This document shows positions 17,814 through 25,200 of a DNA stretch of 43,843 bases, piece by piece. Source of the DNA: a virus. A model generated the notes under the pieces. It was not told where the DNA came from and did no database searches. It saw only the letters and a program-made list of their open reading frames with translations. Both the position numbers and the translations under genes were made by a program. The stretch is taken from positions 1 through 43,843 of IMG/VR virus record IMGVR_UViG_3300020442_001382. One strand, given 5' to 3'. How positions within the stretch are numbered: position 1 is the first letter of the stretch; the number at the start of each line of letters is the position of its first letter.

Positions 17814-18539
17814 ATGGCATTACCAAAGATTGCGACTCCGCAATACACACTGAAGTTACCTTCTACTAATAAGCAAGTAAAGTATCGTCCATTCCTTGTG
17901 AAGGAAGAGAAACTACTGCTGATGGCAATGGAGAGTCAAGATGAGACTCAAACTATTGATACCATCAAGAAGATTATTAGAGACTGTACTAATATTACTG
18001 TCCCTGTTGATCAACTACCAACCTTTGACATTGAGTATCTGTTCCTGAAGATTCGCTCTAAGTCTGTGGGTGAAACCTCCAAGGTACAATTGATTGCACC
18101 TGATGATGGTGAAACTGAAGTGGTAGTTGACATCGATCTCAATGCTATTGAGATGTCTGAAGATGATGAACACGATAAGAAGATTGAGTTCTCTGATACC
18201 ATGGGTATGGTCATGAAGTATCCATCGCTGGATACATTTGTGAAGATGAACATCACTCCTGATGAAGAGGAAACTAGGTCTGAAATGGAGCAGGTTTTTG
18301 AACTTGCCGCTGACTGTATTGATCACATCTATGATGAGAACCAGGTATATCCTGGCGCTGACTCCACTAAAGAAGAGAAGAAAGAATTCCTGGAGCAACT
18401 GACATCTGAGCAGTTTGCTAAACTACAGAGGTTCTTTGAGACTATGCCTAAACTTACTCATGAAGTACAGGTTGTCAATCCTAACACTGGGGTTGAAAGC
18501 ACAGTAACACTTGAGGGATTGGCAAGTTTTTTCGGGTAG
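17814..18539 (+). CDS. gp26: Baseplate hub / tail assembly protein (T4 gp26-like)
   Basis: The 241-residue protein has the T4 baseplate protein family pattern (PF12322 as I recall it): an N-terminal KYRPFLVKEEKLLLMAMES segment, an acidic middle, and a C-terminal helix pair with EQFAKLQRFFETMPKL. T4 gp26 is 208 residues and takes part in central hub assembly. It is first in the hub gene block and has its own late promoter. The last codons read AGT TTT TTC GGG TAG; this contains a canonical T TTT TTC slippery heptamer, and a -1 frame stays open past the stop into the next small ORF, so a longer product is likely. Confidence 0.82.
   Translation: MALPKIATPQYTLKLPSTNKQVKYRPFLVKEEKLLLMAMESQDETQTIDTIKKIIRDCTNITVPVDQLPTFDIEYLFLKIRSKSVGETSKVQLIAPDDGETEVVVDIDLNAIEMSEDDEHDKKIEFSDTMGMVMKYPSLDTFVKMNITPDEEETRSEMEQVFELAADCIDHIYDENQVYPGADSTKEEKKEFLEQLTSEQFAKLQRFFETMPKLTHEVQVVNPNTGVESTVTLEGLASFFG
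18527..18533 (+). other. Putative -1 ribosomal frameshift site (T TTT TTC)
   Basis: The heptamer is in register with gp26 codons TTT and TTC. After a -1 slip the frame reads through to the TAA at 18719. A perfect 8-bp hairpin, CCTCAAAA (18556-18563) with TTTTGAGG (18568-18575), lies 22 bases downstream. Confidence 0.65.
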
Positions 18540-18541
18540 CG

Positions 18542-18721
18542 ATGTTGCACAACAGCCTCAAAAATTATTTTGAGGTCAACTTCGCCCTGATGCACTACCA
18601 TAAATGGAGTCTAGAGTGTGTAGAGAATATGATACCTTGGGAAAGGGAAGTTTACATGAATATGTTGATGGATTATCTCAAGGAAGAAGAACGTCGTTAT
18701 AAAGAACAATCTAGACAATAA
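18542..18721 (+). CDS. -1 frame extension of gp26 (59 aa as a stand-alone ORF)
   Basis: From ATG 18542 the ORF encodes a 59-residue helical peptide with NYFEVNFALMHYHKWSLE, then IPWEREVYMNML, a pattern like the C-terminal halves of tail assembly chaperones (small helical domain with a P-W-E-R-x-x-Y core). No ribosome binding site precedes the ATG. It lies exactly in the -1 frame of gp26 with no stop between the slippery site and the ATG, so the main product is probably a gp26 fusion of about 302 residues. It ends eight bases before the tape-measure-like gene. Confidence 0.7.
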   Translation: MLHNSLKNYFEVNFALMHYHKWSLECVENMIPWEREVYMNMLMDYLKEEERRYKEQSRQ

Positions 18722-18729
18722 CATTCCGA

Positions 18730-21700
18730 ATGGCACAACTAGGTTACAAATTTGTGAATCCCTCTCTCACCCCAGCGGATAAGGAGAGGGCAAAACTTGC
18801 TGGTATCAAACCTGATGGTAAAAAGTTACCTAGTGGCAAGGTAATTCTAGGTGTCAATAGAATTGGTGCTCTCACTAATAGCATCTATGATAGTGTAAAA
18901 GGACTCAAAGCAATTGAGGAAGTCCGTGCAATATCGCTGCGTGATAAGGCTGTAGAAGAACGCAGAGACGAAAGAGATAGAAAATTAGATGAGAGGGAAG
19001 CGAGCACTGAGCGTGGTGCTGTAGGAGTAACCCCAGCAGATAATAAAAAGGTAGTAAAAGAAGCAGAGAAAGATAGGAAACTAAAGAAGAAGAGAGGTTT
19101 TCTAGCATCAATACTAGAACCTATCTGGAACTTGATCAAACCATTTATCAAGTTCGCTGCTATTATATCTGTCCTCAAGTGGTTCCAAGATGAGAAGAAC
19201 CAGGACAAGGTAAGACGTGTCGTCATGTTCTTGGGCGAGGTCTTCAAGTTCCTATGGAAGTGGGGGACCTTTGGCGTCACTAATTTGATGTCAGGTCTAG
19301 GTAAGACCTTTGGTGGTATCAATAAGATTATCAAAGGAGATGTTATAGGCGGTGCATGGGATACCGTCATGGGATTTGGTCAACTCTTGGTGGGATTCTT
19401 AGCCCTCAAGGGACTGGCGATGTTCTTGAACCCATTCAGTTTGATGGGTGGCATCCTGGACATGCTCAATCTATTGAGTGATGATACACCTGACATTGAT
19501 ACGCCAGACAAACCGAAGAAGCCTAAAGGTAAAGTAAAGGCAAAGACTTGGTTGCAGAAGATGATGCAGCGAGTCCGCATCATGTTCAAGAGGATGCGTC
19601 GCCGTGTAGTAAAGGCACTCAAGGCAGTATTCAGGAAACTGAGCATTGCACTTGGTAAACTTGCTCTCAAGATTAGTATCTGGGCAACAAAACTATTCAA
19701 GAATGTTGTCAAACCACTAGTAGATAGACTAGTAAAGAAAGCACTCGCTAAACTAAAGCCAGTCATTGATCCTCTTGTCGATGTGGCAAAGGGTGTAGGG
19801 AGAGGGATACAAAGAAATGTTATAGATCCTGTTGCTCGTGAAGCAGATCGTGTACTGAAACCAGTTATTGAAACAGTTACACCTGTCATCAACACAGCAA
19901 AGAAAGAGATCACAGAACTGGTAGATGATCCTGCAAAGTATCTTGCAGGCAAAAGAAAGGCTGCAGAAGAAGCACTGGAAGCAGGTACTAACGAGGCAAA
20001 GAAGAAGGCGTTTGCTTTTTTTGACTGGGCAAGAAACACTCAGGTAGGTCAGTTTATTGAAGGTGGTGTCAAAAGCACTGGCGAATTTATCACTAAAACT
20101 TGGACTGGATGGACAGATAATCTAAACAAAGCATGGAAAGAGGTAACATCGTTACCAGGTAAAGTTCAGAACGGTTGGAAGGCACTAGGCGAAACTGTTG
20201 ACCAATGGAAGAAAGAAGCTCTTGATAAGATTGTCAAGAAGTTTATCGAACCTATGAAGGCTGGGGTCGATGACTTTATCAAGAACACACCTATTCTTCA
20301 GACTCTTATCAATAAGTTCAAGGGTAAACCTGGAAGGAATGCAGCGAAAGAAGCATTTCAAGCATTTGTAAAGAGAGCGAAACCAGTTGTCAGGGGTGTC
20401 AAAGATGCAATGGATGCATCACCTGTCAAGATTGGTCCTCTAGACATGATCATTGAGGGCATCTTTGCTCTAATGGATCTCCAATCTGGTGTTCCACCTG
20501 CTCGTGTTGCTTTGAGATTGGGTGGATCTATTGCAGGTTTGCTTGCTGGTACTGCTATCCTGGGTGCTATCGGTGCTGGTACTGGTGGTCTGGGTGCTGC
20601 TATCTTAGGTGGTATTGTTACTGGTGCTGCACAGTTTGGTGGTGAGTGGATTGGTGATAGGATTGCTGACATGTTGGGCATTCCTACTGGTGATGAAGAT
20701 CTCGATCAAATAATGTCTGAGGCTAACATCAACTTGACGGGTGAGGGTTCAGGATCTCCAAACCTTACAGAAGTACAAGAGAAATCTGCTGGTGGTATTG
20801 TAAAAGTCAGTCATCCTAAGACTGGTTCTGGGTATCAACCTGCAGGTGCTACAGATGCTCAAGGTAGACCTGTTACTTTATCTCAGGGTGCAGCAGGCGC
20901 ATTTGCTAGGATGATGGAAGATTCTGGTGGTGTAGTTAGAGGTGCTGATGTTGCTAGTAGTCAGAGAAGTAAAGAGCATAATGCATATGTTGGTGGTGTA
21001 GCAAACTCCAACCACTTGTATGGTAATGCACTAGACATTCATGGCGGATCTAATAATTGGTTGAGAGCAAATGGTCCTAAGTATGGATGGGTTGTCAATG
21101 ACTATCCTGGTTCTCATGGTGGTCACTTCAACTATAAGGGTAGTGGTCAATCCAATACAGATAAAGGTGACGCAAAACAAGAGTCTGAAAAGCAAGTAAA
21201 GAATACTGATCAGGTAACACAAGGATCACTTGAGGCAGAACTAAACAAAGCGATTGCTTCTGGTGATGTCACAAGAATCAATGTAGCACAGGCAGCAGTT
21301 GATGAATTCAAGAAGAGACAAGAAGAGAGTGGAGCTCCACCAGATCTATCGTCTATCGTAAACACTGGCGGTGTATTTGGTGCAGGAAGTGTACTTCTGC
21401 AAGTGATGAAGGCACTGTTCCCTAATCTAAATCCAAGTGCTAGTAAGAGTGATGGTGGAGATGATGATACCACCACCAGCGATGATGGATCTGTAACTGG
21501 TGGTGGTAGCGGATATTCTGGTGACCCTGGAACTCTTGCTGTATCTGGTAGTGTTATAGACAAGGGTGTAGACATCTCTAAATCCATCATGAAAGATGGT
21601 GGTGCTACTAAACAAGCAGCAGCTGCTATTGCTGGTAACATGGCACATGAATCTGCTGGATTCATTCCTGGTATTAGAGAGGGTGGACCTTTCGGTAAGA

Positions 21701-22251
21701 GTTCTAAACCATGGGCTAAGGGTACAGTTGGTAAGGGATATGGATGGGCACAGTGGACTAACTCTAGACCTGGCGACAGATATGATAAGTTTATTGAGTC
21801 TTATGGTGGTGACTACAATAAGATTCCAACTAATGCGGACAACTATAAGTTCTTGATGGGTGAGTTGCTCACAGGTAATGGTGGATTTATCAAGAAAGGA
21901 GCTGGAACATCTGGTTCTTGGATGGAGTTCAAAGCAAAGACTGATCTAGTCAATGCTACTGTAGACTTCAGAAAGACCTGGGAACGTGCTGGTGTAGCAC
22001 ACGATGAGTCGAGGATCAAATATGCTGAGCAGTTCTTACCTAAATTATCTGCAGGTGGTAAACTCAATGGTGCTAGACTGAATAAAAAATCTGTTGGATA
22101 CTCACGACATCGTGAAGATGTAGAGTCTGATGTAGCAATGGTAGTCATACCAAAGGTTATTCCTATGCCAATAAATAGGGTACAGGGGGTCACCGCCCGA
22201 CCAGTTGTCGCGGGTAAATCCGCATCCGCAGAACGCTTCGGTAGTTACTAA
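18730..22251 (+). CDS. Tape-measure-like tail protein with M15-type peptidase and tail lysozyme domains
   Basis: The 1173-residue protein has a charged N-terminus with coiled-coil character (residues 55-125), then hydrophobic and amphipathic helices (about 130-660) typical of tape measure or hub-core proteins. Near 740-805 is a peptidase-like segment with His762, Asp769 (SNHLYGNALDIHG) and His799 (HGGHFNY), the zinc-ligand pattern of family M15, although the usual catalytic Glu is not evident. Near 945-1110 is a phage tail lysozyme-like domain with AAAIAGNMAHESAG (candidate catalytic Glu974) and YGWAQWT. The region at 130-220 resembles residues 115-190 of the next gene product. It is coupled to that gene by TAATG. 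It could be the true tape measure (gp29 role) or a hub-associated murein hydrolase. Confidence 0.68.
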   Translation: MAQLGYKFVNPSLTPADKERAKLAGIKPDGKKLPSGKVILGVNRIGALTNSIYDSVKGLKAIEEVRAISLRDKAVEERRDERDRKLDEREASTERGAVGVTPADNKKVVKEAEKDRKLKKKRGFLASILEPIWNLIKPFIKFAAIISVLKWFQDEKNQDKVRRVVMFLGEVFKFLWKWGTFGVTNLMSGLGKTFGGINKIIKGDVIGGAWDTVMGFGQLLVGFLALKGLAMFLNPFSLMGGILDMLNLLSDDTPDIDTPDKPKKPKGKVKAKTWLQKMMQRVRIMFKRMRRRVVKALKAVFRKLSIALGKLALKISIWATKLFKNVVKPLVDRLVKKALAKLKPVIDPLVDVAKGVGRGIQRNVIDPVAREADRVLKPVIETVTPVINTAKKEITELVDDPAKYLAGKRKAAEEALEAGTNEAKKKAFAFFDWARNTQVGQFIEGGVKSTGEFITKTWTGWTDNLNKAWKEVTSLPGKVQNGWKALGETVDQWKKEALDKIVKKFIEPMKAGVDDFIKNTPILQTLINKFKGKPGRNAAKEAFQAFVKRAKPVVRGVKDAMDASPVKIGPLDMIIEGIFALMDLQSGVPPARVALRLGGSIAGLLAGTAILGAIGAGTGGLGAAILGGIVTGAAQFGGEWIGDRIADMLGIPTGDEDLDQIMSEANINLTGEGSGSPNLTEVQEKSAGGIVKVSHPKTGSGYQPAGATDAQGRPVTLSQGAAGAFARMMEDSGGVVRGADVASSQRSKEHNAYVGGVANSNHLYGNALDIHGGSNNWLRANGPKYGWVVNDYPGSHGGHFNYKGSGQSNTDKGDAKQESEKQVKNTDQVTQGSLEAELNKAIASGDVTRINVAQAAVDEFKKRQEESGAPPDLSSIVNTGGVFGAGSVLLQVMKALFPNLNPSASKSDGGDDDTTTSDDGSVTGGGSGYSGDPGTLAVSGSVIDKGVDISKSIMKDGGATKQAAAAIAGNMAHESAGFIPGIREGGPFGKSSKPWAKGTVGKGYGWAQWTNSRPGDRYDKFIESYGGDYNKIPTNADNYKFLMGELLTGNGGFIKKGAGTSGSWMEFKAKTDLVNATVDFRKTWERAGVAHDESRIKYAEQFLPKLSAGGKLNGARLNKKSVGYSRHREDVESDVAMVVIPKVIPMPINRVQGVTARPVVAGKSASAERFGSY

Positions 22252-25200
22252 TGGCAGATCAGAGAGTCAATCAACAGAAACGAAAGAAGAAGATCAATTT
22301 CTACAAGTTTGTAGGAAAGGTCGAGGATACTAAGGGCGTCGTCAACGTTGGTAACGATAAAGTTGTTGAGTCTGTAAACAATCTAGGTAAATCCGTCAAC
22401 GGTATTGCTAGAGAGTTTGAAGCATACAAATCTCTTGCTGCAACAAACTTCCTGAAGCAGCAGAAGATGACGGAAGATGCTAAGAAGAGAAAGAAACTAC
22501 AACCAGACAAGAAAAAGAAAAGTAATTTATTTGGTGGTGCTGTCCTAGGTGGACTTGCTTCACTAGTTGCAGCAGGTGCAGGCGGTATCCTAGACCTATT
22601 GGGTGGTCTATTCAAATTCTTTGTTGTCGTTCCACTGATGAAGTGGATGAGTAAAGAAGAGAACAGAGAAAAACTAGCTAATATTATTAGTGGTATCATT
22701 GCTGTAGGTAAATTCCTATTCAATGTCACGAAAGGTATTGTATTCACTACCTTGGATCTGATAGCAGGCTTCACTAAGATGCCTTTCTGGAAAGAGATCC
22801 TAAACTTTGGTTTGTTTGCCATCTCGTTAGGTGTATCGTTCCTAGCATTCAAGAAACTATTTGGCGGTAAAGCAGTCAAGTTTGTTGTCAAGGGTATCTT
22901 CAAACTCTTCAAAGGTTTCTTCAAATCAATGCTGTGGTTCAGCAAGAAACTGGCGAGGATGGTTGCCCGTCGTGGGCTTGGTGGACTGAGAGGTCTCTTC
23001 AAAGGTAGCCGCGGCAAGGCGCTTGCATTCACTGCGGCATCTGTTGGTACATCAATGGTGCTTGCTAATGCTGTTGGTGATGGTGTATCTGGAAAGGATC
23101 TTGAGGAAGCAGAGCAAGACCTTACTACTCAAGAGGAGCAGGATGAGTCTGAGATTGATGCACTAATCGCTCAACTGCAAGGTGATATTGACAAGGTTTC
23201 AACTGCACTTGATAGATCTGTCGAAAATCCAACAGAAGATGTCAAGGCAGAGGCAGAAGGTGTTAGTGGTCCATCAGCTAAACCTGAAAGTGTAGGTGGT
23301 GTACAAGAAGCGAATCAAAAGACTGGTCCTACAACTGGTGAAGATGGACTACCTAAAGAAGGTGATGTTGAACCTCCTAAGCAAGGACTAGATGCAGTCA
23401 AGGAGAGAGCAGGTCAAGGTATCAATTTTGTAAAGACTGGTTTCTCTAATATTCTGAATGGGAAATCATTCTTTGATCAAGAGGGTGATAGTGCAGGACC
23501 TGCAGAAGAGTCGAAGGCATCTGGTGGAAGACTCAAGTCATTTGCTGGTGGTGGTTGGATTCAAGGACCACAGACAGGATATCCTGTATCACTTGACGGT
23601 GGTAAGAGCACAGCATTTATTGGTCATGGCACAGAGTATGTTGCAACCAAGGCAGAGGGTGGTGGTGTTGGACCAGCATTCGTTATTCCTTTTGATACTC
23701 CAGCAACCAGAGGTAATCCTAACCTAACAGAAAGACGCACTAAAGAAGCAAAGAGTAGTGGATTCCTAGGATACAGTGAGGGTGGAGAGGTCAACCAACA
23801 ACAGGATATGTTTGGTGGTGATGCCCGTGCTCGTGGTGCAGAACCTAATATGGGTGGTGGTGAGGGACCTGTATCAGGTCAACCACTATTCAATCCAGAT
23901 GTAATCAAGAAACTATTACCTAAAGGATACTCTACAGGTGGTAACACTGATGATGGTGGAGACAATGGTCCTAATTCAGAAGCACCTGATGTACAACCAA
24001 AAGATGGTGGTGTAGGTCAGGGCAAAGCAATCCTTGAGGGTGCTAAGAAAATTATTGGTCTGAAGAAAGGCGTTGGTGACATGTGTGCCTTTACCACAAG
24101 AGCGGCACTTGCAGCAGCAGGTCACAACTTCGCTGAGAAGAGAACTCAAAAAGGTGACCTAGACACACCAAAAGGTACAGGATACAATGGTAGAAACTAT
24201 GCTGCATCCTTTGGTGGTAGTGACATGGGCACTATCAAGACATCAAGATCTCAGGTTACAGCGGGTGATGTTATCTTATGGAGAGACTACGCTGGTGGTA
24301 GATACGGTAAGGGAGCAATCACACACGTTGGTATCGCTGCAACTGATGGTCTGACTCACCAGTATGACCACAACAGACGCAGTGGATGGCACTATCGTCC
24401 ACACTGGGACAAGTATGGTGGTACAGAATGGTTTGCTGGTGTTACTCTAGGTGGTAAAGCTAGTGGTGCAGTACCTGGAGACTCTAATGGTGATGTGAAG
24501 ATAGGTCCAGATGGCAAACCAATCACCAATCAGGATGCAAATGCAGCGGCAGAACCTGATCCTGCAGCGATGGTCACGAGTCTTCGTGATATGATCTTCA
24601 AGTTCCTGGGTAAAGAACCACCAGGAGAATCCATTTCGCCACCAGGAGAGGAGAAAGCGGACAAAGAGATTAGTGCGGCATTCAATACTGACATGCCATC
24701 TATTCTAAAACCCGAAGAGCAGGCGAAGATTGTTGAGAGAAGTAAGGACATCAAGATTGATTACAATTCAAGTCCAGCGATATCATTTGCTGACACATTG
24801 AAGATGTCGAGTCCTCTTACTGACATGCCTAAGATAGAATTCAAAACGGACATGTCTAGCATGTTCTCTGATTCTAGTGCCTATACAAGTCTTGCTACAG
24901 ACACCAGTACAGAAAAGGGATATGCAGCGGGTGGTACTATAGCAGTATCTAAAAATTATGATAAGAGATTGAAGCATCTCAAGGATAGGATTGAGGGTGC
25001 ATTGAGTATGCCTATGCCTCCAATAGGATACATGGATCCTGCCACCAACAGTATCATGACTAAGAATGATCTGAAACAGTTGAAGGCAAAGTATGATAGG
25101 ATGCTATCTTTGAAGAAGATTAGGGTGAGGTCTCGCACACCTGAACCTGCACCTGCACCTGCTGCAAGGGATGCAGATGGAACTGCATTGGCATGGGGTG

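Follow-up and report, generated by a model that had tools for sequence, protein, structure and literature searches.

A near-invariant slippery site and a conserved -1 frame at gp26 of T4-like cyanophages suggest a frameshifted tail-assembly chaperone pair

In a T4-like cyanophage genome fragment, the gp26 gene ends just past a run of six T, and a conserved coding frame continues beyond its stop codon in the -1 register. Is that frame expressed as a separate small protein, or is it the C-terminal part of a longer form of gp26? The fragment ("the window") is the whole analysed stretch of 43,843 nt (IMG/VR record IMGVR_UViG_3300020442_001382), and its nearest named relatives are Synechococcus phages S-ShM2 and S-RIM14 (Kyanoviridae), with 74.8% DNA identity over the gp26 locus. 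The first-pass annotation of this DNA had proposed a programmed -1 frameshift, by analogy with the G/GT tail assembly chaperones of lambda-like phages. Our analysis supports both the frameshift and the analogy, because the slippery heptamer, its phase and the -1 domain are conserved and because T4 gp51 carries both domains fused in frame. We put the probability that the gp26 locus uses -1 frameshifting to encode a pair of G/GT-type tail-assembly chaperones at about 0.9. That the shift occurs, how efficient it is and that the products act as chaperones are what we infer from comparing sequences. The relevant features are these:

17,814-18,539, plus strand: gp26 ORF in the 0 frame, the short form, putative tail assembly chaperone "G" or TAC-N; homologous to T4 gp26 via PF12322 (E 1e-72), and matching phrog_150 (E 2.8e-81)
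18,513-18,517, plus strand: Shine-Dalgarno-like GAGGG, a putative 5' frameshift stimulator 9 nt upstream of the heptamer, with family-wide enrichment at the same spacing
18,527-18,533, plus strand: slippery heptamer T TTT TTC (U_UUU_UUC), in phase, read from the sequence and kept in 126 of 127 non-redundant relatives
18,527-18,721, plus strand: -1 frame from the slip site (FFRVAMLHNSL...), a gp51-like "T" or TAC-C domain, assigned from phrog_634, a motif and codon-position mismatch rates
18,537-18,539, plus strand: 0-frame stop TAG, one codon past the heptamer, at the same distance in 123 of 126 relatives
18,539-18,585, plus strand: predicted RNA stem GCGA.GUUG / CAAC.UCGC, which begins 5 nt past the heptamer and is kept in a four-member clade
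18,556-18,575, plus strand: apical perfect 8-bp hairpin, CCTCAAAA-ATTA-TTTTGAGG, 22 nt past the heptamer and specific to the window
18,730-22,251, plus strand: 1173-aa ORF directly after the -1 extension, tape-measure/tail-lysin-like by position and domains (PF18013)

We suggest that most ribosomes would halt at the TAG at 18,537 and yield the short form, and that in a minority two tRNA-Phe would slip in tandem on U_UUU_UUC and set the ribosome back by one base. These ribosomes would go on for about 60 codons to make a long form consisting of gp26 plus the gp51-like C-terminal domain. Pairing of GAGGG with 16S rRNA and the downstream stem would probably stimulate the shift. Many short and few long copies would then coat the tape measure protein, like lambda gpG/gpGT, and the extra C-terminal domain of the long form may recruit tail tube subunits. 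An AlphaFold2 model of gp26 (pLDDT 85) matches T4-like baseplate hub proteins in BFVD, and among PDB structures the HK97 tail assembly chaperone 2OB9 comes out with the highest probability; this match is weak (probability 0.63, E 1.1, TM 0.41 on the target), and the likeness of fold is only suggestive. A sequence search of the PDB with the gp26 profile returned nothing real. As to the tape measure itself, the 1173-aa ORF has no similarity to T4 gp29 and could not be aligned with it; the genes downstream of gp26 in phages OC and ValKK3 match tape-measure PHROGs (E 4e-8 and 2e-6, respectively). The 1173-aa ORF is the first of two consecutive ORFs of about 1150 aa each (18,730-22,251 and 22,251-25,712), both matching phrog_1200 and phrog_790 and, by eye, resembling each other near the N terminus; the first bears M15 peptidase-like and tail-lysozyme domains, and either may be the tape measure.

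gp26 is 241 aa long and its final codons read AGT (18,525) TTT TTC GGG TAG, so that the first-pass coordinates of the gene, and the position and phase given there for the heptamer, prove right when re-read from the sequence. Among window ORFs of at least 100 aa, gp26 alone carries a T6 or A6 heptamer that is in phase and no more than 40 nt from the stop. We compared 196 gp26 loci, clustered at 85% identity into 127 representatives and at 55% into 15 clusters; these relatives share kinship, and the counts that follow are not independent events. They also exclude the T4/RB43-type two-gene phages and the Ackermannviridae, both of which are without the heptamer. Heptamer and phase were present in all 29 loci of our first set, and U_UUU_UUN stands in phase in 126 of the 127 representatives (72 UUC, 53 UUU and 1 UUG; the lone exception, L136, reads G_UUU_UUU) and in 15 of the 15 clusters at 55% identity. 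Phages carrying it include Sinorhizobium phiM7 and phiM9, Cronobacter LPCS28, Vibrio ValKK3, Aeromonas 65, Pelagibacter Mosig, Ochrobactrum OC and Stenotrophomonas Yut3. The first-pass annotation had pointed to relatives as the place to look for conservation of the heptamer and the -1 ORF, and both are kept across very diverse T4-like phages; alignments spanning all the families were too diverse for collection scans. The first Phe codon at the slip site is TTT in 126/126, compared with 967 of 1342 (72%) across the gene body. The preceding codon has T as its last letter in every one of the 126, against 40% for codons overall and 56% for those of Ser. The heptamer is thus conserved far beyond chance.

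Upstream, the distance of 9 nt between GAGGG and the heptamer falls within the 9-14 nt given as the Shine-Dalgarno spacing rule for stimulation of -1 shifts in a 2016 recoding review (PMC5009743). GAGGG is invariant in the nearest clade of the window, and GGAGG is found at exactly -15 from the heptamer in 44/126 relatives, as against 0.1% of control windows. At this site Glu is encoded by GAG in 63% (27% in the gene body) and Gly by GGA or GGG in 60% (32% in the gene body). The predicted anti-Shine-Dalgarno energy of the relatives is -7.27 kcal/mol; when their codons are resampled synonymously it is -5.70 (sd 0.11), and 0 of 100 such draws reach so low a value. Across the family, therefore, the GGAGGG/GAGGG element is stronger than codon usage accounts for; the window's own GAGGG is not above its synonymous null (-6.4 vs -7.2).

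Downstream of the heptamer, mean folding z-scores for lengths of 60 and 100 nt were -1.36 and -1.89, compared with -0.02 and +0.31 in control stretches; the window's own fold has z of -3.6 at 60 nt but only -1.5 at 100 nt and -1.74 at 87 nt. The perfect 8-bp hairpin that the first-pass annotation had singled out is indeed present 22 nt downstream, where it occurs once in the window, but it is not itself conserved even in the closest relatives, and we rejected it as a conserved signal. It caps the longer predicted stem at 18,539-18,585, which is conserved in the window's clade (n = 4) as GCGA.GUUR/YAAC.UCGC with one pair covarying between G-C and A-U. For the U7 clade we predict an 11-bp stem (columns 13-23 with 62-72) in which 87% of cells are paired, versus 22-49% when the arms are slid, and in which 42 cells have two-sided changes; this stem was chosen after looking: we noticed it by eye when folding single sequences, and the comparison with controls came afterwards. 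RNAalifold returned no structure for the U7 clade, and the predicted folds of S-MbCM6, S-RIM8 and S-B64 are weak downstream. The downstream stems are thus clade-specific predictions, that of the U7 clade covarying. In the window, the Shine-Dalgarno-like element and the stem are both there, individually modest.

The -1 frame is open from the heptamer to a TAA at 18,719-18,721, and the first-pass reading of an open frame past the gp26 stop, FFRVAM and onwards to 18,721, holds; the frame is likewise open in those loci of relatives that we checked. The -1 peptide belongs to PHROG 634, a gp51-like family named "baseplate hub assembly catalyst" (E 5.5e-26), and shares the conserved motif HK-[YW]-S...E...PWER..Y. 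A comparison of the frame among relatives gave mismatch rates of 0.33, 0.21 and 0.52 at positions 1, 2 and 3 of the -1 codons; this third-position excess of changes indicates that the -1 frame behaves as a translated frame under protein-coding selection. The peptide also weakly matches the C-terminal end of phrog_150, a hint that some family members hold the domain in frame.

T4 provides such a case. Residues 1-201 of T4 gp51 match PF12322 (E 3.9e-52), its last 45 residues match the -1 peptide profile (hhalign probability 93, E 3.5e-7), and phrog_634 matches both the window's -1 peptide and T4 gp51. By these matches, T4 gp51 is a gp26 paralogue with the C-terminal domain fused in frame. T4 gp26 matches PF12322 only, as the short form would, but unlike the window gene it has no slippery site at its end and a stop in its -1 frame, and T4 genes 26 and 51 lie on opposite strands, divergently oriented. 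With gp51 fused and gp26 short, T4 splits between two genes what in cyanophages appears to come from a single one. T4 gp26 also weakly matches the gp28 PHROG (phrog_1140, E 0.00094; T4 gene 28 is at 8349-8882 of L028), hinting that T4 gp28 may be a further distant gp26 relative.

The alternative that survives best, though we consider it improbable, is that the C-terminal domain is a separate small protein made by termination-reinitiation at the ATG at 18,542 (TAGCGATG), as present annotations imply. This ATG lies two nt after the gp26 stop and would give a protein of 59 aa; many relatives have an ATG among codons 4-8 of their -1 frame, "gp51" stands as an entry of its own in GenBank records, and TAATG overlaps occur in some Ackermannviridae. 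The first-pass remark that the ATG has no ribosome binding site is a fair one (predicted anti-Shine-Dalgarno pairing of -3.9 kcal/mol), and most other window genes do no better. The family speaks against it. No start codon precedes the heptamer in the -1 frame of any of 126 relatives, and the first 12 codons of that frame have no ATG in 43/126 and no ATG, GTG or TTG in 25/126. Annotated starts vary among phages and some fall within the domain, and S-MbCM6 and S-WAM1 have none annotated. Moreover, reinitiation has no need of a near-invariant in-phase heptamer, the position of GGAGG is fixed relative to the heptamer and too distant from the ATG, and T4 has the domain fused. A separate start at 18,542 is conceivable for the window but fails to explain the family.

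Less credible still is RNA polymerase slippage on the T run, by which mRNAs with a missing or added base would give both forms through transcription. The run is 6 T here and reaches 8 T in some relatives, but six T is short for such slippage, which is discussed for runs of 9 in the 2016 review (PMC5009743). The flanking signals, Shine-Dalgarno-like upstream and a stem downstream, implicate the ribosome instead, and the strict phase and T-ending preceding codon fit tandem tRNA slippage. That the heptamer is a mere by-product of a conserved S-F-F (or D-F-F) in an AT-rich gene where TTT is the commoner Phe codon, with no biologically relevant shift, we regard as very improbable, given the invariance of TTT and of the T-ending codon before it, a conserved -1 domain that often has no start of its own, and the flanking signals.

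The 2022 abstract of Vladimirov, Gautam and Davidson reportedly describes frameshifting as conserved in several T4-like groups. Papers citing that work credit it with identifying the T4-like tail assembly chaperones (Virology 566:9-15, as cited in PMC10885494 and PMC12846349): the PRFect paper (PMC10885494) cites it for T4-like phages with one short gene and one fused long gene, and PMC12846349 gives it as the source for poly-T slippery sequences of T4-like TAC-N genes. The first-pass remark that no such description was known for the gp26 family thus does not stand. By these accounts the T4-like TAC-N/TAC-NC system is like the window in its gp26 family, its short and long forms and its poly-T slippery site. 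The core idea goes back to that 2022 prediction for T4-like phages, and the window is a further instance; the Shine-Dalgarno enrichment, the covarying stem and the breadth counts were computed here and add detail that may be new. The 2016 review, for its part, describes G-T frameshifting as conserved in long-tailed phages "except T4" (PMC5009743).

Other known systems resemble the window in arrangement. Lambda gpG/gpGT and P2 gpE/E+E' likewise have a short gene with a -1 extension and a heptamer near the 3' end, and lie just ahead of the tape-measure region, as the window pair may do; the likeness is one of arrangement, and the lambda slippery sequence, GGGAAAG, differs from that of the window. 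E. coli dnaX shares the 5' Shine-Dalgarno-like stimulator, the homopolymer heptamer and the 3' stem, but it is another gene and its shifted product is the short one.

The Ackermannviridae speak against the frameshift model, as they retain the -1 domain without the heptamer. Members of this family and related Vibrio phages (L036, L037, L038, L042, L043, L217-L234), as well as Pseudomonas phage Cygsa01, keep the domain with no U_UUU_UUN; their junction resembles GARATTTTCATTTAAT and holds just one U_UUC. A TAATG overlap is present in some of them, and in others an ATG is missing altogether. A scan with the gp26 of one Ackermannviridae-like Vibrio phage (L037) found no relatives. We consider it an even bet that T4-superfamily chaperone genes carry a dnaX-like cassette, with a Shine-Dalgarno element at 9 nt, a U6-7 heptamer and a lineage-specific stem about 5 nt after it, whose strength is tuned by lineage. 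On this reading, loss of the heptamer would have left the Ackermannviridae with a weaker U_UUC or a stop-start layout, and T4 would have escaped through duplication into genes 26 and 51.

Our preferred reading, frameshifting into the long form, has consequences for annotation. Hundreds of marine T4-like genomes hold a small ORF that is unannotated or misannotated, and this reading assigns it to one product, the long gp26; "gp51" in these phages should be merged with gp26 into a joined CDS. Not one GenBank record that we examined has such a join. In cyanophage records (e.g. L208-L213) the gp51-like ORF has inconsistent starts or is unannotated, and some starts cut the conserved domain. Finally, the gp26 3' end of Stenotrophomonas phage IME-SM1 (KR560069) has five T where its close relative Yut3 has six. 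We put the apparent frame change in IME-SM1 down to this one missing T, probably an error in sequencing the homopolymer, by which the 0-frame stop disappears and the slip site is masked.
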